A DNA stretch of 64,000 nucleotides from contig JARDYH010000002.1 in NCBI GenBank assembly GCA_029215795.1, positions 200,058,310 to 200,122,309 of the forward strand, in the 5' to 3' direction. Under the pieces are notes generated by a model, which did no database searches, had not been told where the DNA came from, and was given only the letters and a program-made list of their open reading frames with translations. Source of the stretch: Anniella stebbinsi (lineage: Eukaryota; Chordata; Lepidosauria; Squamata; Anniellidae). Of the stretch, positions 1,793-45,474 are shown piece by piece (positions within the stretch are counted from its first letter, which is position 1; each line of letters begins with the position of its first letter). Both the position numbers and the translations under genes were made by a program.

Positions 1793-3700
1793 TTTATTTA
1801 TTTATTTATTTATTGCATTTTTATACCGCCCCATAGTCGAAGCTCTCTGGGCGGTTCACAAAAATTAAAACCATGAAATCATTTTAAAATATATAAAACA
1901 AGGCACAATCTAAAAACACAGAATAACATACAATATAAAAAACACAACCAGAATAAAACCAAGCAGCAGGAATCAATACAGATTAAAATACAAATTTAAA
2001 ACAGTAAGGATTAAAATTGAGTTAATTTAACTTTTAAAATACTGGGAGAATAAAAAGGTCTTCACCTGGCGACGAAAAGAGTACAAAGTAGGTGCCAGGC
2101 GAACCTCTCTGGGGAGCTCATTCCACAGCCGGGGTGCCACAGCAGAGAAAGCCCTCCTCCTAGTGGCCACCTGCCTCACTTCCTTTGGCAGGGGCTCACG
2201 GAGAAGGACCCCTGTAGATAATCTTAGGGTCCGGGCAGGTACATATGGGAGGAGGCGTTCCTTTAGATATCCTGGCCCCAAGCCGTTTAGGGCTTTAAAT
2301 GTTAGTACCAGCACTTTGAATTGGGCCCGGACCTGGATCGGCAGCCAGTGAAGTTGGAAAAGGACTGGCGTAATATGGTCTCGTTGGCCAGTCCCCGTTA
2401 ACAATCTGGCTGCCCTGTTTTGTACCAGCTGAAGTTTCCAGACCGTTTTCAAAGGCAGCCCCACGTATAACGCATTGCAGTAATCCAAACGAGAGGTTAT
2501 GAGAGCATGGATAACTGTAGCTAGGCTATCTCTGTCCAGATAAGGGCACAGTTGGTATATCAGCCTAAGCTGGTAAAAGGTGCTCTTTGCCACTGAGTTC
2601 ACGTGTGCCTCAAGCGACAGTTCTGGATCCCAGAGCACCCCCAAACTACGGACCCGATCCTTTAGGGGGAGTGCAACCCCCTCCAGAACAGGGTGAACAT
2701 CACCTCGCCGGACAGACGAACCACCCGCTAACAGTACCTCCGTCTTGTCTGGATTGAGTCTCAGTTTGTTAGCCCTCATCCAGTCCATTACCGTGCTCAG
2801 GCACTGATTCAGAACAGCCACTGCCTCACCTGGGTTTGTTGAAAAGGAGAGGTAGAGCTGGGTGTCATCCGCATATTGGTGACATCTCAGCCCACATCTC
2901 CGGATAACCTCTCCCAGCGGCTTCATGTATATGTTAAACAGCATAGGGGATAAAATAGAGCCCTGTGGAACCCCATGGCTTAAATGCCACGGCACAGAGC
3001 AATAATCCCCCAGCACCACCTTCTGAAAACGGTCATCTAAGTAGGAGCGGAACCACTGCAGCGCAGTGCCTCCAACTCCCAGCCCAGACATCCTATCCAG
3101 AAGGATACCATGGTCGATGGTATCGAAAGCCGCTGAGAGGTCCAAGAGAACCAACAGGGTCGCACTCCCCCTGTCCCTCTCCCGGCAAAGGTCATCCCAC
3201 AGGGCGACCAAGGCAGTTTCTGCTCCAAAACCAGGCCTGAAACCCGATTGAAATGGATCTAGATTTCGCCACCGGCCTATAGTTGTTAACATCTTCCAGG
3301 TCCAGGTTAGGCTTTTTCAGGAGTGGTCTGATTACCGCCTCTTTTAATGAGGCCGGCACCACTCCCTCTCTCAAGGTGGCATTTACAACCTCCTGGACCC
3401 AGCCGGCGGTCCCATCCTTATTTGATGTAATTAGCCACGACGGGCAAGGGTCAAGCACACAAGTGGTCGACCGGACTTGGCCAAACACCTTGTCCACATC
3501 CTCAGGCCTCAGTAACTGAAACGCATCCAATAAAACTGGACCAGACGGTGCTCTGAACGCCTCTACTAGCGGAGCTGCATTAAGCGTGGTGTCCAATTCA
3601 AGACGAATCTGAGCGACTTTATCTTCAAAGTGCCGTGCAAACTCATCACAGCGTGCTACCGAGGGTTCCACCATCTCTCGCCCTGGCCCAGAGCTAGCCT
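1793..3700 (-). mobile_element. L2-like LINE, 5'-truncated copy
   Basis: A non-LTR retrotransposon on the minus strand. The TTTATTTATTTA tail is at about 1793-1815, followed by the same 3' terminus as the neighbouring plus-strand piece, then a 3' UTR of about 200 bases, then the ORF2 remnant. No endonuclease domain is present, so the copy is truncated upstream of the RT linker. The RT style (LLVLLDLSAAFDTIDH, YADDTQLY) fits the L2 clade better than CR1 or L1; the clade call is from motif memory. Confidence 0.88.
2027..3674 (-). pseudogene. L2 ORF2 reverse transcriptase remnant
   Basis: Two overlapping minus-strand frames (3674-3192 and 3292-2027) together hold the region before the RT, the RT palm and the C-terminal part. 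RT motif A (DLSAAFDTIDH), motif B (GVPQGSILSPMLFNIYM) and the YADD box (plus-strand 2864-2880) are intact, so the catalytic aspartates remain. The frame breaks near 3240-3290, where about 30 codons between NNYRPV and LDPFQSGF seem to be deleted compared with the copy at 39 kb. There is no N-terminal endonuclease. It cannot encode a working protein. Confidence 0.88.
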
Positions 3701-5230
3701 TGGTGTGCGGATATGTCTGTTATGTGTGTGTGATCTACCAGCTGAGGATAGGACATCATGCTAGTCCATACTGATGCTGGAGGCAGAGCGAGTAGTCAGA
3801 TATAAGCCGAGTCCAAACCTTCTTTGAAGTTCAGGCTGAGCTCAAAATAGCCATGGTCCCTGCACCATTCTTCTTGCACCTGCAGCCTTCACCTTTTCTT
3901 TCCCATTCAAACTCTCTTGCCAACAGCAGCAATATGGTGGACTGGCACAGGGGCCTCCATTATGTCCTAGCATCGTTGTTGCTATAGTGTCTCAAGCACC
4001 AGAGCCTCTGGGAAACTGCATTTTCCAGGAGTTATAAATGCCTGAGCTGCCACTGCCGTGGATGGTACCGAGCAGCACCAGAAGCACGACAGGATTCATA
4101 CTTCCAAGTAAGTTTCCGTATTTGGAAACAATATGATTATTCTCTGTTGTTCAATTTTAAAGAAAATAATTCGTTTGAGCGACGCCTATTCGCAGACAAA
4201 TGCAGGTCACGTCACACCCATTATTACTAGCTCATGAAAGCAATAAGTTTGTTGAATGTTGATGAAGATATCTGCATTTTTTGTGAACCAGAGAGGTTCG
4301 GCTATTGGGTGGTATAGAATGAAATAAATAAGTGAAATGCTGCCTTTTGTGTGTGTGGGGTGGGGGGGAAAACGTGGCCTTCTAATTTAGAAACAAATTT
4401 CCTATGGAAGCAAAGGATGTCTCTGGCACTGCCACTTTCTTAAACATTCAGCCCAGAGTTGTTATGGCTGTAGACTGCCTTTCCATGTGTGTTCAAGTGT
4501 CCTGCCCTAAAGCAGCTGTTCTCATGGTTTCCAGAGAAGAATTGATAGCAAGCACCAAATATGTTACCCATGTGATTTTATTTGCTGGCTAACCCGCAAG
4601 GTTTGTGGAAGTGATGTTTTGCATCATTCTTTTGGGACACAACCCACCAAACATCTCCCACATAGGCCTGGTAGAAATGTGTGGAAGTTGCACATCAACA
4701 GCACCTCTGCTGCTGTGTTGCTCTTATTGTGTTGCTTCAGTGGGGGCTGCGCAGACATCCCAACAGATTGTGCCCTTGAATTTAATGACAGCATTTTAAT
4801 TTGGAAACATTTGTGATTAGCACCATTTTGTAAACCAGATGTGGTTTGCTCTTTGGGATTGCATGACTATTTTTTTGTCTTTGTTTCAGAAAAGCTTAAA
4901 ACAAACAGAGCGTTAGTCAAACAGCTACAAGCTAGAAAGCTGAAAGCTAGAAAGCTCACTGACCTAGAATACATTTTCATGAGTTTAAAATGTTATAGAA
5001 CTATTCAGTGGTGCTTTCATGCCCCCTGCAGTTGGACTATTTATTGAGATTGTGCTTAAATAAGCAGATGCAGTTTTCCTTTGAATTCAATTTGTCAAAC
5101 CTCTCAGTGCTGAGGAGTTTCAAGGGAGTAAATCCACATGCTGAGACTCTGTACCTGACTCTATATCTGATCGCTAGGTTGCGATTGCATTACTTACAGC
5201 TGCAGCTGACAGTCAGCCTTGTAGAACAGA
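3701..5230. other. Mostly unassigned DNA with one L2 tail
   Basis: A degraded L2 3' terminus (AGAGAGGTTCGGCTATTGGG, then AATAAATAA) sits at about 4283-4335 on the plus strand. No gene is seen elsewhere; the ORFs at 4404-5280 have no recognisable motif. Confidence 0.4.
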
Positions 5231-20484: not shown

Positions 20485-20496
20485 CAATGTAGATAT

Positions 20497-20937
20497 GCTG
20501 GAGAAAAAAGAGAGCAAAGCTCTGGTGCTATGTAAAAATATTTTTCTTTATTTCTTTTATCCTATCTTCTAGCTGCTCGACGTATTTCGGTTACAAAACC
20601 TTTGTCAGGAGCTACATAAAACAAATATAGTCACATTTTAGCCAACTCTAAGATCCAACTTAAAATCATTAACCATTATATTAAGCAAGCATGAAACAAC
20701 ACCCATGTCATACTGAAACACATCTTAGTTTACATTCCTTTGCTATCAAACACACTACAAATATTGAACATTTACACATTCAAATGAAAGATTTTATACA
20801 CTGACCTGGAGCACTTCTCTACAATTTTGTGATTGTTACTACGAAAAGCTGAATCTAGAATAAGAATTAAAGATCAAAATTTTCTGCTCATGTGATGTCC
20901 TAATAGGCTCAGTTGTCTCGAAATTCTGGGCTCAGGA
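20497..20937 (-). repeat. Penelope-like left arm (inverted pLTR)
   Basis: Reverse complement of the right arm with scattered differences, from GCTGGAGAAAAAAGAGAGCA outward to CTAATAGGCTCAG inward. It carries a minus-strand hammerhead-like motif at 20575-20612. Confidence 0.9.
20575..20612 (-). ncRNA. Hammerhead-ribozyme-like motif, left arm, mutated
   Basis: On the minus strand: GCTC, CTGACAA, a GGTT/AACC stem II with TTGT loop, GAAAT, then ACGTC and GAGC. Stem II is better here than in the right arm. The second core G of CUGANGA is A, and stem III is changed, so this copy is probably inactive. Confidence 0.65.
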
Positions 20938-20938
20938 T

Positions 20939-22348
20939 TTGTTGGTCACCATGGACGTTAAATCACTCTATACCAGTATACCACAGGATGAGGCATTGGA
21001 TATCATATTTGATAATTTACAAAAACGTGAAGTTAGACATCCGCCTTCACCCTTTTTAGTGGCATTAGCAGAATTAGCACTGCAAAAAAATTATTTCATG
21101 TTCAACAAGAAATTCTTTTGGCAGATGAAAGGGATAGCGATGGGATGCCCCATGGCACCAGAAATCGCCAATTTGTATATCCAGAACTTCGAACAAAAAT
21201 ATATCTTTTCCAGTAATTACTACAATCACCATCTGATCATATGGTTGAGGTTCATAAACAACATATTTTTCATGTGGAGAGGGATGAAGGAAAGGTTGAA
21301 TGATTTCATCAAACGGGTCAACATCAGGGATCCAATTTAAGTTTTGAAAGCATGTGTGACACACAACAGGTAAATTTTCTTAATATCACTGTTAAAAAAC
21401 AACATCACACTTTAGTTACAACAATGTTTAAAAAGCCTACAGACAGAAACACCTTGCTGAAGTATGGCAGCCATCATCCAGTGACCCTCAAAAACAACTT
21501 ACCATACAGTCAATTTCTGAGAATAAAACACAACTGCTCAGAACATCAGGACTTTTTTCATGAGTCTCAGATAATGACGCAACGTTTTCAGAGTAGAGGG
21601 TACCCGAAGAAAATTATCAAAGCAGCCAGATTCAAGGTGAGCCAATTCAACCGAGAACATCTCCTGCAACCAAAAGAAAAGATGGCCAATAACAAAGATC
21701 TCATGCATTTTACCTTTTGACCCAGTTACAAAAGATTTACAAAAGCATATATGTTTGAATTGGCATCTGCTTCAGGATCTGCCAGGTCTGTCTATGAAAC
21801 CAATGGTGACATTCAAAAGAACAAGAAATTTAAAAGATTGGTTAATCCACACTGATCATACAAAACATTATCATAAAAAAACCATGGTCCAGCAGATTTT
21901 ACTAAACCTACCCAGACCTCAAGGACACCACCCATGTGGACATTGTGTGTATTGTAGATTGACTAAAAAGATGCACTCTTTTAGTCATCCCATCAGTGGC
22001 AAATCGATACAGATTGCAGACTTTTTGAACTGTAACACCGCAGGGGTCGTTTATATGATTATCTGTCCCTGCAATAAGGTCTAGGTAGGTAAGACAACAA
22101 GACAACTGAAGATCAGGATAGGCGAGCATCTGTATAGTCTAAGACATCAAAAAACAGGGGTACCTTTGATAAAACATTTCACAGATAAAAAACATGGGCC
22201 TGAATCTTTGGTTTTCTGGGGGATAGAAAAGGTGAGAGGAGGTGAGACAGTACTCAGTAAAAGAGAACTTTTTTGGATTCTATCCTTAAAAAGCCTAGAA
22301 CCCAATGGATTAAATGATTCGTTAGATTTATTCTCATACAAACAATAG
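20939..22348 (+). pseudogene. Penelope-like RT / GIY-YIG protein remnant
   Basis: Three frames (20939-21340, 21352-21720, 21755-22084) plus a continuation to 22348. RT motif A (VTMDVKSLYT) is at 20945 onward and motif B (KGIAMGCPMAPEIANLY) at about 21127-21180. The catalytic box reads F-I-N-N-I at 21251-21265, so both expected aspartates are asparagine. A linker CGHCVYC cysteine cluster lies at about 21937-21957, and the C-terminal GIY-YIG endonuclease starts at GVVYMI (about 22045). An in-frame TAG at 22082-22084 replaces a residue just before VGKT. Frameshifts lie between 21340 and 21352 and near 21720. The RT N-terminus is absent. Dead copy. Confidence 0.9.
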
Positions 22349-22553
22349 TAAGACTTTACAATAAGGTTCTAGCATGAGAAGTAGCAGATGGGTAAAAACT
22401 TCCCCAAACTGCTACCAGAGTAAGTTCAAGATAAAACGCATTGGAAATGAAAATGAAGTGTGTAGATTGTTGAATGTTGACAAGATCATTGAGTTATAAG
22501 GCAACCAAGGCTGCCAGCTGTAGAATGAAATGATTTAAATTGCTTTCAAACTG

Positions 22554-22995
22554 ACCCTGAGCTCAGAATTTTGAGATGACTTAGCCTATTAGGACATCAC
22601 ATGAGCAGAAAATTGTGATCTTTAATTCTTATTCTAGATTCAGCTTTTCGTACTAACAATCACAAAATTGTAGAGAAGTGCTCCAGGTCAGTGTATAAAA
22701 TCTTTCATATGAATGTGTAAATGTTGAATATTTGTAGTGTGTTTGATAGCAAAGGAATGTAAACTAAGATGTGTTTTAGTATGACGTGGGTGTTGTTTCG
22801 TGCTTGCTTAATATAATGGTTAATGATTTTAAGTTGGATCTTAGAGTTGGCTAAAATGTGGCTATATTTGTTTTATGTAGCTCCTGACGAAGGTGTTGTA
22901 ACTGAAACGCGTCGAGCAGCTAGAAGATAGGATAAAAGAAATAAAGAAAAATATTTTTACATAGCACCAGAGCTTTGCTCTCTTTTTTCTCCAGC
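22554..22995 (+). repeat. Penelope-like right arm (pLTR)
   Basis: The matching arm in element sense, downstream of the ORF. It carries the better preserved hammerhead-like motif at 22880-22917. Confidence 0.9.
22880..22917 (+). ncRNA. Hammerhead-ribozyme-like motif, right arm
   Basis: In order: GCTC (22880-22883), the core CTGACGA (22884-22890, consensus CUGANGA), stem II AGGTGTTGTAACT, GAAAC (22904-22908), GC, then GTC (22911-22913) as predicted cleavage triplet, and GAGC (22914-22917), complementary to GCTC as stem I. Stem III would be only 2 bp, as reported for Penelope-like hammerheads (established: such ribozymes are described in PLE terminal repeats). Stem II is weak in this copy. Activity is untested. 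Confidence 0.75.
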
Positions 22996-23040
22996 TTGTT
23001 GGTGCTCCCTTCCCTCTTTGTTCCATCAATGTAGATGTGC

Positions 23041-23755: not shown

Positions 23756-24094
23756 CACGACATTGTCTAGGCTGACCATATGAAAAGGAGGACAGGGCTC
23801 ATGTAACTTTAACAGTTGTAGAGAAAAGGGAATTTCAGACAGTGTTATTTGTATGCAATTAGTTCCTGGTGAAATTCCCTCTTCATCACAACAGTTAAGT
23901 TGCAGGCACTATACTAGAGTGACCATATACAAAAGAAGGCAGGGCCCCTGCAACTTTAACTGTTGTGATGAAGAGGGAATTTCACCAGGAACTAATTGCA
24001 TACAAATGACACTGGCTGAAATTCCCTTTTCTCTACAACTGTTAAAGTTACATGAGCCCTGTCCTCCTTTTCATATGGTCAGCCTACACGACAT
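23756..24094. mobile_element. Family F fold-back MITE inserted in another MITE
   Basis: The element 23768-24086 has TAGGCTGACCATATG ends. CACGACAT occurs at 23756-23763 and 24087-24094, but on the left four bases (TGTC) separate it from the terminus, so the duplication is off-register. Flanking CTAAGCCATA / TATGGCTTAG sequences belong to the host MITE. Confidence 0.85.
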
Positions 24095-29359: not shown

Positions 29360-29412
29360 AGGCTCAGAGAGCTTTGGCTATTGGGCAATATAGAAATGCA
29401 ATAAATAAATAG
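29360..29412 (+). mobile_element. L2-like LINE 3' terminus
   Basis: CTCAGAGAGCTTTGGCTATT then AATAAATAAATA, the family terminus with tail only. Confidence 0.65.
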
Positions 29413-29439
29413 GCAGGGAGAGGGTTAGATATCTTATAT

Positions 29440-29577
29440 GCCAGACTTTCCCAATATGGGCACCTGACAGTAGTTTTGGACTACATTTTCCATCATCCCT
29501 GACATTTGGGCATGTTTGCTGGGGCTGATGGGAGTTGGAGTCCAAAACACGTGGACACCAGTTTGACAAAGGCTGTT
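29440..29577. mobile_element. hAT-like MITE family W
   Basis: Left arm TAGTTTTGGACTACATTTTC and right arm GGAGTTGGAGTCCAAAACAC are inverted around CATTTGGGCATGTTTGCTGG. Confidence 0.75.
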
Positions 29578-29614
29578 GTATGATAACAGAACACAAATAG
29601 TCTCCTAAATAGGG

Positions 29615-30895
29615 GTGTGCATTAGGGGTGTGCATGGACCCCCCGGATCGGATCGGGACCCGGATTGGGACCTCCAATTTTGTCACGGATCGGATCAGAC
29701 AAAATCGGAGGCCCCCCGGACCGGATCGAGTCCGATCCCGATCCAAAAATCGGACATTTTTGGATCGGCCGCCATTTTTTTCCCCATAGACTTGCATTGC
29801 AATGCAAGTCTATGAGGAAAAAATGGCGGCGGGTGGGTGAGGGGGGGCCTAACTCCCTCCCCCCGGGGCCATCTGCTTCCATCCGTTGGCGCCCGCGGGC
29901 GCCAGCGGAAAGAAGCAGACGGCCCTGGGGGGGGGTAAGCCCCCTCCCCCCTGCCACTGCTTACCTTACAGGGACGTCCACTCCCATCCGGCGCCGGCTG
30001 CTACTGCCAGCGGGCTTTGCGGCCTGCTCCAGAGTGGCACACCGGGTGACAGCGCGCCACCCTGGAGCAGGCCGCGAAGCCTGCTGGCAGTAGCAGCCGG
30101 CACCGGACGGGAGCGGACGTCCCTGTAAGGTAAGCGCGCTGCTCCGCGCGCCCCCCTCCTCCCCTCCCCCGCCCCCTGCTTACCTTACAGGGACGTCCAC
30201 TCCCGTCTGGCGCCGGCTGCTACTGCCAGCGGGCTTTGCGGCCTGCTCCAGAGTGGTGCGCCGGGTGATGTCATCACCCAGCGCGCCACCCTGGAGCAGG
30301 CCGCGAAGCCTGCTGGCAGTAGTAGCCGGCGCCGGACGGGAGCGGACGTCCCTGTAAGGTAAGCGCACCACTCCGCACGCCCCTCTCCTCCCCTCTGCAC
30401 GCCCCCCTCCTCCCCTCCCCCCACCCCCTGCTTACCTTACAGGGACGTCCGGTCCTGGCCGGCACCGGCTGCTACTGCGAGCGGGCTTCGCAGCCTGCTC
30501 CAGAGTGGCGCATTGGGTGATGTCATCACCCGGCGCGCCACCCTTGAGCAGGCCGCAAAGCCCGCTCGCAGTAGCAGCCGCGCCGGACGGGAGTGGATGT
30601 CCCTGGAAGGTAAGTGCGCTGCGGACAGCCCCGCTAGGGAAGGCCCCCCCCCCGCTGTCCACTTTCATCGGCGGGCGCCCGCTGGCGCCCGCCAATGGAA
30701 GCGGCGGTGGGCGCCAGCGGGCGCCCGCCGATCCGCCAATCCATCCGAACCGGATCGGAACCTTTTCGGATCGGTTCGGATTGGATCGGCCGATCCAGCT
30801 GTGAGATCGGAAATCGGATAATTTATCCGATTTCCCTCTGGATCGGATTCGGATCGTGGATCGGATCCGATCCAGTGCACATCCCTAGTGTGCAT
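29615..30895. mobile_element. GC-rich hAT-type element B with 8-bp TSD
   Basis: The 1265-bp element 29623-30887 has ends TAGGGGTGTGCATGG and GTGCACATCCCTA. The exact 8-bp duplication GTGTGCAT (29615-29622, 30888-30895) was copied from the host element's own terminal repeat. Subterminal regions are dense in GGATCGG/CCGATCC; the centre is very GC- and CpG-rich and holds three palindromic modules. Long frames here reflect lack of AT-rich stop codons, not a gene. No transposase. Confidence 0.92.
29960..30616. repeat. Three tandem palindromic modules with splice-like edges
   Basis: Units at 29960-30134, 30179-30364 and 30431-30616. Each starts CTTACCTTACAGGGACGTCC (the third continues differently) and ends with its near complement, GACGTCCCTGTAAGGTAAG. 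Units 2 and 3 centre on the palindrome GGGTGATGTCATCACCC (30263-30279, 30515-30531); unit 1 has lost it. C-rich spacers precede units 2 and 3. On either strand each unit therefore has a pyrimidine tract plus AG on one side and GTAAG on the other, framing exon-sized bodies of about 153-167 bases. Confidence 0.85.
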
Positions 30896-31840: not shown

Positions 31841-31965
31841 AAAAAACTTTTCTGCATGAATTCAGGGTTGAGATATATAGTGCTTATATCACAAAAGAAA
31901 AGGGAACCTTTTAAAAAAAAATCTGCTTGCAAACGTCATGCCACAATGCCCTCTTCTGATAATAG

Positions 31966-32140
31966 TGTGACCATCTGAAAAGGAGGACAGGGCTCCTGCA
32001 TCTTTCACAGATGCATAGAAAAGGGAATTTCAGCAGGTGCCACTGGTATGCATGCAGCACCTGGTGAAATTCACTCTTCATCACAACAGTTAAAGCTGCA
32101 GGAGCCCTGTCCTCTTTTGCATCTGGACACTCTAGTATAA
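31966..32140. mobile_element. Family F MITE, one arm
   Basis: GTGTGACCATCTGAAAAGGA to GCATCTGGACACTCTAGTAT: left arm and centre of the fold-back family, right arm missing. Confidence 0.75.
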
Positions 32141-32199
32141 CTCCTGCAGCTTTAACTATCCTTTAAATCCTATGGCTTTTTGCTATACAGTATGCTACA

Positions 32200-32440
32200 G
32201 TTGATGTTTGACTGGAATTGAAACATTTTACTTGTGTATACTGATGATTTTACATGGGAATGATATAAAGCAATCAGCCCCATTTGATACAATTTTCTTA
32301 TGCATACAAGCCAAGATGTTTGGCCACTGAAGAAGACTTTCTGGTTGAAACACATCTGGCCACTTGAAAGAGAGCACTATTTTAGCAATTCATTGGATGT
32401 AAAATTTGGAACCACAAGTGCTCCTGGGTAAAAAAAAACC
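32200..32440 (+). mobile_element. Probable Penelope-type terminal-repeat remnant
   Basis: No RT is present, but the segment carries a hammerhead-like core in the context seen in the 20-23 kb arms: ribozyme core, then TTTTAGCAATTCATTGG. It differs in sequence from those arms, so it would be another family. Boundaries are approximate. Confidence 0.45.
32321..32362 (+). ncRNA. Second hammerhead-like motif
   Basis: TGGCCA (32321-32326), CTGAAGA (32327-32333, consensus CUGANGA), a weak stem II, GAAAC (32347-32351), AC, ATC (32354-32356) and TGGCCA (32357-32362), which pairs perfectly with the first TGGCCA as a 6-bp stem I. Stem III is A-U plus a C/A mismatch. Core order and stem I complementarity support the call; weak stems II and III suggest decay. 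Confidence 0.55.
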
Positions 32441-32767
32441 CTGTTATTTTAATTTATGTGTTTTGTATTAAATTTTGTACATTACATTCTCCTTCACTTT
32501 GTTCTTATCATTCTATTATTAAAGACAGTACAGAGATACCCCCTCTGTATAATTGTATCTAAGATCTATAAGATCTGTAAGAAACCAAATGTCAGTTTCA
32601 GTGTCTGCCTCAAAGGCTTTGGGGTGTGTGGACAATAAATATAAAAAAGATATGTAGCTACATATATTTCTGTTTGCCTCTCAGATGAGACTAACAGCGT
32701 TTTTAACGTACTTTCTCGACGTACTGGAAACTGAAATGTGGTACAAACTAAAATTTGGATTACTATA

Positions 32768-32897: not shown

Positions 32898-33239
32898 TAA
32901 TGCTTACAAATGGGATGCACTTCCTGTTGCCATTTGTAAATAATTGTGTGGGGCAGCCATCATAAGAAGTGTTTTCTAAGTACCTGTGATGTTCCAACCT
33001 GATACAGGTGGGAGAAAAATACAAAAGCCTAAGAAGCTTGTAATATGATGGAAAAGTTCCACCTTCCTGTGTGATCCCTCCAGCCATTTTTTAAAACAAC
33101 AACAACAACAACGATTCCTACACATTAACATCCTCGTTCATTGCTCACACGTGTTTGAGCAAAAAAGCTCAAAGACACTTTGGCATGTGTGAAAATATAC
33201 TACACGGCTGCTCTTGGTGGATGTTTGGGTAGGCTGACC
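32898..33239. other. Unassigned DNA
   Basis: No gene is seen; a short (AAC)n run lies near 33097-33111. Confidence 0.4.
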
Positions 33240-33538
33240 AGATAAAATCCAGGTCAGGGCTCATGTAACTTTAACAGTTGTAGAGAAAAGGGAATTTCAG
33301 CCAGGGTTATTTGTATGCAATTAGTTCCTGGAGAAATTCTCTCTTCATCACAACAGTTAAAGTTGCCTTCTTTTGTATATGGTCACTTTAGTATAGTGCC
33401 TGCACCTTTAACTGTTGTGATGAAGAGGGAATTTCACCAGGAACTAATTGCATACAAATGACACTGGCTGAAATTCCCTTTTCTCTACAACTGTTAAAGT
33501 TACATGAGCCCTGTCCTCCTTTTCATATGGTCAGCCTA
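33240..33538. mobile_element. Family F fold-back MITE
   Basis: TAGGCTGACCAGATAAAATC to TTTTCATATGGTCAGCCTA, 299 bp, with inverted halves. Flanking 8-mers do not match, so the TSD is lost or this is a recombinant of subfamilies: the left end is of the AGATAAAATCC type, the right of the CATATG type. Confidence 0.85.
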
Positions 33539-34071
33539 GCCTTAGCAAATAGTGTAGGGAGCATTAGGACTCAGTGGATGAGGTGAGTATATTCATGGAT
33601 TCAAGCTGCATAACTTTGAATAGCAGCGTCTTTTTGGTCTGCTTAACATTATACCAGATTCAACAGACAGCTTAATGGATGATCCACAGCAGTGCATGGC
33701 TTTCTTTCCTTTCTTTTCCTTTCCCTTTCTTCTCTCTTCTCTTTTATTGGGACTTGCTGTGTGTAGTCACAGTCCTGAGACCCAGTTTGATGACCCAAGG
33801 CCAGCCCCCCATCTCCAAGTGCTGTCTTTTGCCTTTTGCCAATACAACTTATTACCCTGTCTGTTGCAGTTGTCTACGTTTCGCTACCCTATTTTGTCTT
33901 TTTAGAAAGAGTCTCAAATAAGTGAAGTAATTCAGCCAGAGTCAAGTGAGTTGTTTTTTCGTTTGATTGTGTGTGTGTGTGTCTAGTATGAATGAACAGA
34001 AAGCAGACACAGAAGTACTTTGAAACAGAAAAATCCATGCCCTTCCTGTCTGGAATGTGATTTGATGACAT

Positions 34072-43890: not shown

Positions 43891-45474
43891 GAACCCGTCC
43901 ATCTGGAAGCAACCTCTATTGATTTCCTTGGATCTCTTAGCAGGTTTTGACCCAGATCATGGTGTCTGGGTCAAAATACCAGGACTGCCTGGTATTTTGT
44001 GGTGACTCCAGTCCTTTCTGGAGGGTAATGCTCGGAAGATGTACTTCTTTTCCACTCATAACCTTTGGCATATCAGGTGCCATAAGGTTCTATCTTGCTC
44101 CACCCCATTCTTTTAAACATGTACATAAAACCATAGGATGAGATGATATCGAGATTTTAGCCTGTTATCATCAGTATATGACTTCCTGATTTGCTTGAGT
44201 GATTTCTGTATAAGTTTTATAGTTTTATTGTAACCCCACCCCAGACATAAGTTACATGAAGGTGGGATATAAATTGCAATAACAACCAAACAAATGCTGT
44301 GGGGTTCCTTTCCCTATTTTTTTTTAATGAAGCCATACACTGATTGAATTTACTTCAGTGCATGTTGTGTTGTCATTTTGCTTTTAGTGAATGAATCTGG
44401 TTTCTCATGCTCTTTTCATATCATGTGTAAATCAATTTCAATCCTCTGATCTCCAGCGAACACCTGTCCTCTAGACTTTGGAAGGCCTTTGGTTCCACAC
44501 ATAATTATACTCAGAGGAATGCATGTTTCCAGATCAGCCCTTTTCAAAACCATGTTCTGACCCCATAGCATGGGGAACGTACACAGACCATTCACGGATG
44601 CAAGTAACTGTCAAACTAGCTTTGTTTTTCCCCCTAATGTTACTTGGCTCCAATTCTGTTAATGGAAGATAGTTTGTAAAATGAAGATTAGAAGAGTCAT
44701 GCACTTCAAATACATTTTACAGACCCGTGTGCTAGTCCTTCTCACCTCATGAATTCAGAAGTGTCTATGAATTTGGGGATTGTTGTTGGAGGATGATCTC
44801 ATCTCCCAGCTTTACAAATTCTCTTGTTTCATTTTCCCCTGCAACTCATTCTGTGTATTTACAGCCAAACTTTGCTGACAAGGACAAATTAACCCCTTCT
44901 TCCTTTTATATTTTCTATTGTGTTCACCACCCAAAGGCAAAATGGGCCACAGGTTTCTGTTCAGAATGAGCTATTCATTGTGGTGGTTTCAATCATTTAT
45001 ATGACTTCAGAAGTGGGACTTTACAATACTACAGGTAAAAAACAACAACAACAACAGACAGCTTTCAATGGTGACATCAGCAAAATGGTCATTCCAACAT
45101 GGCAATTGCAGTTGCCAATTAGGCTTTAACAAGTGATCTAGAAAAACCAGCTTCAGTGTCTAGCTGCTCAAACTGAGAAATGTAAAGTGTATATATGTTT
45201 CTCCTATTATGCAGTGCATAGTAGAAGGAAAGCTTTTCATGAAACTAGATTATAGAATGTATAGAACTAGAGTATTGGAAAGGTGAGATGAACCATATTT
45301 CTATTGAAGTCATTATAATTATTTCTAAATTTGCAATGATAGATATTAATTAGTATATGCAAAATTTTGTGCAAATCAGTATCCCCTTTCAATCTCTATT
45401 TTGCATTTCCTCTTCTTTGGCAATTCATAAATGGCCACCCTACTTCTGCATGAATGTGTGAGAGCTAAAAATAG
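43891..45474. other. Unassigned DNA
   Basis: 44230-44295 resembles a LINE or SINE 3' end (AGGTGGGATATAAATTGCAA). No gene is recognised elsewhere. Confidence 0.4.

Follow-up and report, generated by a model that had tools for sequence, protein, structure and literature searches.

Minimal type I hammerhead ribozymes have been described for Penelope-like retrotransposons, where they reside in the pseudo-long terminal repeats (pseudo-LTRs) of dispersed copies (Cervera and De la Pena 2014; Lunse et al. 2017; covered here through passages of PMC7761336 and PMC6155905). In those passages their role is described as unknown (PMC7761336), and reference is made to a viroid hammerhead that has an additional nucleotide in its core (PMC6155905). 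Here, 64,000 nucleotides of Anniella stebbinsi DNA (contig JARDYH010000002.1, positions 200,058,310 to 200,122,309, forward strand; the window) were analysed, and a motif at 22880..22917 (+) was found that shares with this published class the core, the type I order, the minimal stem III, the location in a pseudo-LTR arm and the dispersed copies. The site is very probably a partly decayed genomic copy of such a minimal type I hammerhead, carried in a pseudo-LTR that belongs to a GIY-YIG Penelope-like retrotransposon.

The element Poseidon_Ac (PAc) from Anolis carolinensis resembles the window element in being a vertebrate GIY-YIG Penelope-like element with a hammerhead at the pseudo-LTR/leader, a GAAAC..GUC motif and a 30–40 bp tail (PMC11167929, in part, as for the following). 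Its hammerhead cleaves in vitro with its protein and shows no cleavage without it, and mutants of this hammerhead leave insertion in vitro unaffected. In its published sequence, as read here, a single additional U separates A9 from stem II. In contrast to the window motif, for which cleavage is predicted, that of Poseidon_Ac is experimental. Furthermore, the Poseidon_Ac start codon lies inside the hammerhead, whereas the majority sequence of the dispersed family of the window arms (family 1) has no ATG from the hammerhead to the end of the tail, and the stem III strand is ACGU in Poseidon_Ac and ACGCGU in family 1. The two arm sequences are seemingly unrelated, as judged by eye only. The preliminary description of this DNA, made from the letters alone, had regarded minimal hammerheads as established in Penelope-like repeats, and published examples indeed exist, one of them in a lizard element (PMC11167929).

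Two further systems are comparable. The Pen2a copies of Adineta vaga with inverted pseudo-LTRs display an inverted 5′ arm, a 31-bp tail and a target-site duplication (TSD), as in the window element, and their relatives are likewise 5′ truncated; unlike the window element, the term hammerhead is absent from the parts of this account that were available (PMC3846280). The satellite and retrozyme hammerheads of newt and axolotl have a weak helix III and cleave better as dimers, a dimer dependence described for axolotl, where one hammerhead with a palindromic loop resembles the window motif (PMC7229834, in part). They are found in tandem repeats of 330–350 bp, similar in size to a second repeat family of the window (family 2, ~345 bp).

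The right-arm motif and its Penelope-like element

The letters, order and spacing that had been claimed for 22880-22917 are borne out by the sequence. On the plus strand, the 5′ strand of stem I (GCTC, 22880-22883) is followed by the core segment CTGACGA (22884-22890), an extra A between A9 and stem II (22891), the stem II segment GGTGTTGTAACT (22892-22903), the core segment GAAAC (22904-22908), a GC loop (22909-22910), the cleavage triplet GTC (22911-22913) and the stem I partner GAGC (22914-22917). All 12 invariant positions (CUGANGA, GAAA and UH at the cut) are present and stem I is intact. C17 corresponds to 22913, and the cut is predicted between 22913 and 22914, the position that had also been proposed. 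Stem II consists of the pairs G.U, G-C and U-A, followed by a G.A mismatch; one extra A intervenes, so that this stem does not directly abut both A9 and G12 as in type I. Stem III is reduced to 2 bp with the GC loop, its self-complementary strand ACGCGT (ACGCGU in RNA) being intact. This diminished stem III and the pseudo-LTR location are both features of the minimal hammerheads of Penelope-like elements.

The motif lies in the right pseudo-LTR arm (22549..22993, +), the end of which is placed as in tail-less copies. The left, inverted arm without tail spans 20499..20943 (−), its outer end being taken from family copies; together they form an inverted repeat (20497-20943 / 22549-22995) of 447 nt with 21 differences. 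A 33-bp 3′ tail, delimited by the ends of family copies, is present at the right arm only (22994..23026, +). The insertion is flanked by a 14-bp TSD, CAATGTAGATATGC at 20485..20498 and CAATGTAGATGTGC at 23027..23040, which are identical at 13/14 positions, and no other plus-strand site of the window matches at 13/14 or better. The ends of the 40 family-1 rows, both window arms included, fall into two classes, 17 at arm position 443-448 (22991-22996) and 16 at 477-481 (23025-23029), with 7 elsewhere. For Penelope-like elements, optional tails of 30–40 bp have been published, said to correspond to the interval that separates two start sites of reverse transcription (PMC11167929 and PMC3846280, both in part); the 33-bp tail and the two classes of copy ends fit this.

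Between the arms, at 20944..22348 (+), an open reading frame (ORF) relic of a Penelope-like protein is present, which starts within the reverse transcriptase (RT) at the DVKSLYTSIP stretch and continues into the endonuclease region. It is 5′ truncated, consists of three pieces in two frames and has its endonuclease region interrupted by an in-frame TAG (22082-22084), which agrees with the dead coding part assumed earlier. An intact frame, as expected of an autonomous element, is thus missing. The relic reads FINNIF at the position where, as we assume, an RT should display an Asp pair. A read-through of the relic has 61 homologues at E ≤1e-3 among 3390 candidates, the best with 39% identity over 99% of the query; all those with a named organism are amphibian (Ambystoma, Xenopus, Pseudophryne, Ranitomeya, Ascaphus). 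Several of them carry PF00078 and/or PF01541, which we take to be GIY-YIG; P0040 carries both, and P0019, carrying PF01541, aligns to 21923-22339. Relatives with RT and GIY-YIG endonuclease are therefore found via these homologues, and the pseudo-LTR arms, the optional tail and the TSD of a Penelope-like element are found as well. Within the window, the first ORF piece reaches 24.4 bits (E 2.7e-5) with the Pfam model RVT_1, under the cut-off of 29.6, and Pfam gave no match on the other three ORF pieces of the window. That the arm belongs to the Penelope-like element is seen from a second insertion (L115), where the homologue of 21791-23000 is unbroken (94.5% over 1210 bp) and the endonuclease region runs straight into the arm.

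Two hammerhead families with compensated stems

For family 1, a 131-bp query was searched against the 1.89-Gb host genome, and the best 40 of 883 candidates yielded at least 41 matches. The 38 stretches retrieved cover all 39 listed matches outside the window, and 40 of 46 BLAST rows, from 38 loci and the two window arms, span the hammerhead together with 20 nt of either flank. The majority motif of these 40 rows is GCTC CTGACGA A GGTT TTGT AACC GAAAC GC GTC GAGC with perfect 4-bp stems I and II. The core is intact in 24/40 rows, or in 28/40 when position 17 may be any H. This rate of 60% exceeds the 32% expected at the substitution rates of the flanks (p 0.0003); it carries little weight, because a query containing the motif was used to rank the copies by similarity. 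With CpG sites left aside, variation in the motif is slightly lower than in the adjoining parts of the query span (20/1092 versus 111/3627 variant positions; p 0.035, 39 rows). From family 1 only, using 39/40 rows (L048 being unplaced), a covariance model termed R1 was built.

Outside the element, R1 matches the window at 32318-32371 (+) with 27 bits (E 9.1e-5, rough calibration). This match identifies a second hammerhead, GGCCA-CTGAAGA-A-GACTTTCTGGTT-GAAAC-AC-ATC-TGGCC at 32322..32361 (+), in a copy of a second, older dispersed repeat of ~345 bp (32169..32512, +), which was delimited by comparison with the loci L104-L110 and the ends of which vary among copies. In a genome search with this family 2, the best 40 of 80 candidates gave at least 49 matches, 39 further copies were retrieved, and 40/57 BLAST rows span the motif. 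The majority of these 40 rows reads GGCCA CTGAAGA A GAC TTTCTG GTC GAAAC GC GTC TGGCC; the core is kept in 20/40 rows and the extra A after A9 in 38/40. R1 detects the hammerhead in 7/7 family-2 loci of 8 kb, with E values from 1.9e-6 to 0.014.

In a joint alignment, 34/40 rows of family 1 and 35/40 of family 2 were combined, six and five rows being excluded for indels in the motif or as unplaceable fragments. Of the ten pairs, four differ between the families in both partners and yet remain paired; all four belong to stems I and II. Altogether 92.0% of the cells are paired, in comparison to a shuffle mean of 79.8% and 32.2% for the best slid version, a result that amounts to four compensatory changes and not to 126 independent cells, as the rows represent only two families. 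Within one window, two families have thus kept the catalytic letters and altered their stem letters in a coordinated way. The family copies and this second, covarying family back the assignment as a minimal type I hammerhead in a Penelope-like arm.

Family 2 is also less variable in the motif than in its 3′ flank at non-CpG sites (5.9%, 78/1326, versus 13.6%, 330/2420; motif lower in 33/39 copies), and the upstream stretch 32260-32289 is likewise low in variation. That low variation extends beyond the motif would suit a stretch kept for another reason, such as protein binding, the start of reverse transcription or a promoter, with a hammerhead fold that is vestigial in both families; the poor fold of the monomer (see below) points in the same direction. 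Nevertheless, the catalytic letters and both stems are kept while the stem letters change in step between the families, which a binding site defined by primary sequence would not predict. This explanation is thus considered improbable, and a hammerhead, now partly decayed, is preferred.

Some observations on these families stand apart from this argument. Several family-2 matches, e.g., L079, L083 and L101, are split immediately before the hammerhead (query ~1-50 and 55-166) by an insert of ~80–115 bp. A partial repeated arrangement was seen in L105 alone among the family-2 loci, without a systematic test for tandem arrays. In L113, a locus in which a Penelope protein was looked for and not found, two family-1 arms lie head to head at 3376-4212 with 80 bp between them; this is an inverted solo-arm insertion. 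A further R1 match at 44109-44131 (−; 16.2 bits, E 0.088) was taken as noise, a two-family model (R2) being silent there at E ≤10. Relatives in viral contigs (8 stretches) were rejected as hammerhead carriers: R1 is silent on all 8 at E ≤1, and no hammerhead stems were seen by eye in seven; in the eighth, L007, the match begins at the contig edge.

Chance, Rfam and folding

The core pattern without stems occurs at 3 sites of the window, in comparison to a mean of 0.72 in shuffled sequences, and since 3 or more sites were reached in 4/100 shuffles, the core alone is weak evidence. A chance resemblance of a 38-nt stretch to a loose motif would draw on this abundance of stemless cores, and on the silence of Rfam. 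With stems required (stem I of at least 4 bp, stem II of at least 3 bp), the right-arm site is the sole match on both strands of the window, and 60 simulated windows of 64 kb (first-order Markov) gave 1 match in total. Taken together with the second family and its compensated stem pairs, the simulated windows led us to reject chance as an explanation, and the intact core in 24/40 family-1 rows likewise speaks against it; such a coincidence appears barely conceivable.

Several results weigh against the hammerhead assignment. The Rfam hammerhead models gave no match in the whole window at the gathering threshold, nor in either arm at E ≤10. The stem thresholds of the scan were chosen after the site was known, and the copies of both families are the best-ranked ones to motif-containing queries, which inflates apparent conservation. 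A canonical core lacks the additional A that follows A9 in 40/40 family-1 rows. Within family 1 alone, covariation is no greater than in shuffles. The hammerhead fold is not the minimum of the monomer, neither for the majority motif (−6.3 versus −11.9 kcal/mol) nor for the right arm (−4.3 versus −9.1 kcal/mol). On the side of the element, no GIY-YIG match to Pfam was obtained in the window's own ORF pieces, and no Penelope protein was found in four other family-1 loci (8 kb each) or in the 7/7 family-2 loci viewed with 8 kb of context. From these eleven loci, most such arm copies may be solo arms, and family 2 in particular may represent solo arms or a non-autonomous repeat.

The first and the folding results lose weight on comparison. 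Rfam is silent at E ≤10 as well on four family-1 copies whose motif equals the majority and on four family-2 copies; its models would be blind to a variant whose stem III has 2 bp and whose stem II is set off from A9 by an additional A. A covariance-model search had been proposed in the preliminary description, with the lack of a match above threshold named as evidence against the motif. With Rfam this is literally the outcome. The family model R1 gives 84.9 bits for the right-arm copy, its seed including both arms. Since Rfam misses majority-type copies too, it was rejected as an arbiter and its silence is not taken as a refutation. As the variant was missed in every copy tested, annotation by Rfam alone may undercount such hammerheads. 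Single-strand folding, in turn, is an unfair test, because the published active Poseidon_Ac motif, as paired in the present analysis, is likewise not the minimum of the monomer.

Predicted cleavage and decay of the window copies

In a head-to-tail transcript from live members of family 1, the motif would sit at the unit junctions, flanked by one unit's 3′ end and the following unit's 5′ leader. Pairs of copies could then join via the self-complementary stem III strand ACGCGU, and/or the fold could be helped by the element protein. A cut after GUC would separate the tandem units and leave a 5′-OH end starting with GAGC. Small Penelope-associated hammerheads reportedly cleave as dimers, as the title of the 2017 work by Lunse and colleagues has it, and the self-complementarity of the ACGCGU strand in family 1 would suit such a cleavage. 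This scheme does not change existing knowledge of the mechanism.

If the ribozyme acted only as an RNA dimer, its stem III strand might be kept self-complementary, and genome copies would then reveal dimer-only cleavage as a property under selection. Among family-2 copies (window 32350-32355; L065-L103) in which both CpGs of ACGCGT have decayed, 14 are palindromic (ATGCAT, ACATGT) and 5 are not (p 0.064); in family 1 only two such rows exist, 1 palindromic and 1 not. Subfamily structure could explain the excess in family 2. Judged from these letters, selection for dimer-only action is rather doubtful.

The left arm contains a second copy of the motif at 20575..20612 (−), the core of which is broken: it has A in place of G8 and GAAAT in place of GAAAC, and its stem III strand is no longer palindromic. 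R1 scores it with 87.8 bits (20565-20622), this copy being part of the seed. The two arms differ at 5/38 motif positions in comparison to 16/409 elsewhere (p 0.025). This higher divergence is largely due to CpG decay, because the motif is CpG-rich, with 5 CpGs in its 38 nt and 4 in the remaining 407 nt of the arm.

Within the right arm, the damage concerns stem II. The G at 22895 occurs in 1/40 family rows, that is in the right arm itself, and the T at 22903 in 11/40; the stem II hairpin is thereby weakened from −1.9 kcal/mol in the majority to −0.2 kcal/mol. Stem II closes with a G.U pair and contains a mismatch, and in a read-through RNA the antisense left arm would pair with this copy over 447 nt; we therefore infer that the right-arm copy probably has very little activity or none. 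Its 12/12 core nucleotides and the intact stem I and stem III palindrome might suggest a ribozyme that is active and perhaps co-opted. The loss in stem II, the G at 22895 unique among 40 rows, the sequestering inverted arm and the broken coding part all contradict this, and it is regarded as very improbable.

The survival of the core, which the preliminary description had hinted to be meaningful, does not indicate function: G8 is missing from the left arm, the right stem II is weakened, a hairpin of the two arms would hide the motif, the arms diverge more within the motif than elsewhere, and the core is intact in 24/40 copies. That description had named the motif correctly, and the motif is an ordinary, decayed member of the published Penelope-like class; the left-arm copy, the extra A, the damage to the right stem II and the second hammerhead at 32322-32361 were absent from it. 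The locus serves as a worked example of hammerhead decay in a vertebrate-type genome.

Other repeats are present in the window. A foldback repeat at 23765-24089 has 134-nt arms that are 98% complementary. The stretches 31955-32157 and 33218-33539 both match the same parts of L106 and resemble this foldback by eye, and the three may represent one palindromic family resembling miniature inverted-repeat transposable elements. Similar peptides (LPYRDV..., CSRVA...) recur at 29378-30822 in open frames of several phases, pointing to a GC-rich tandem array.
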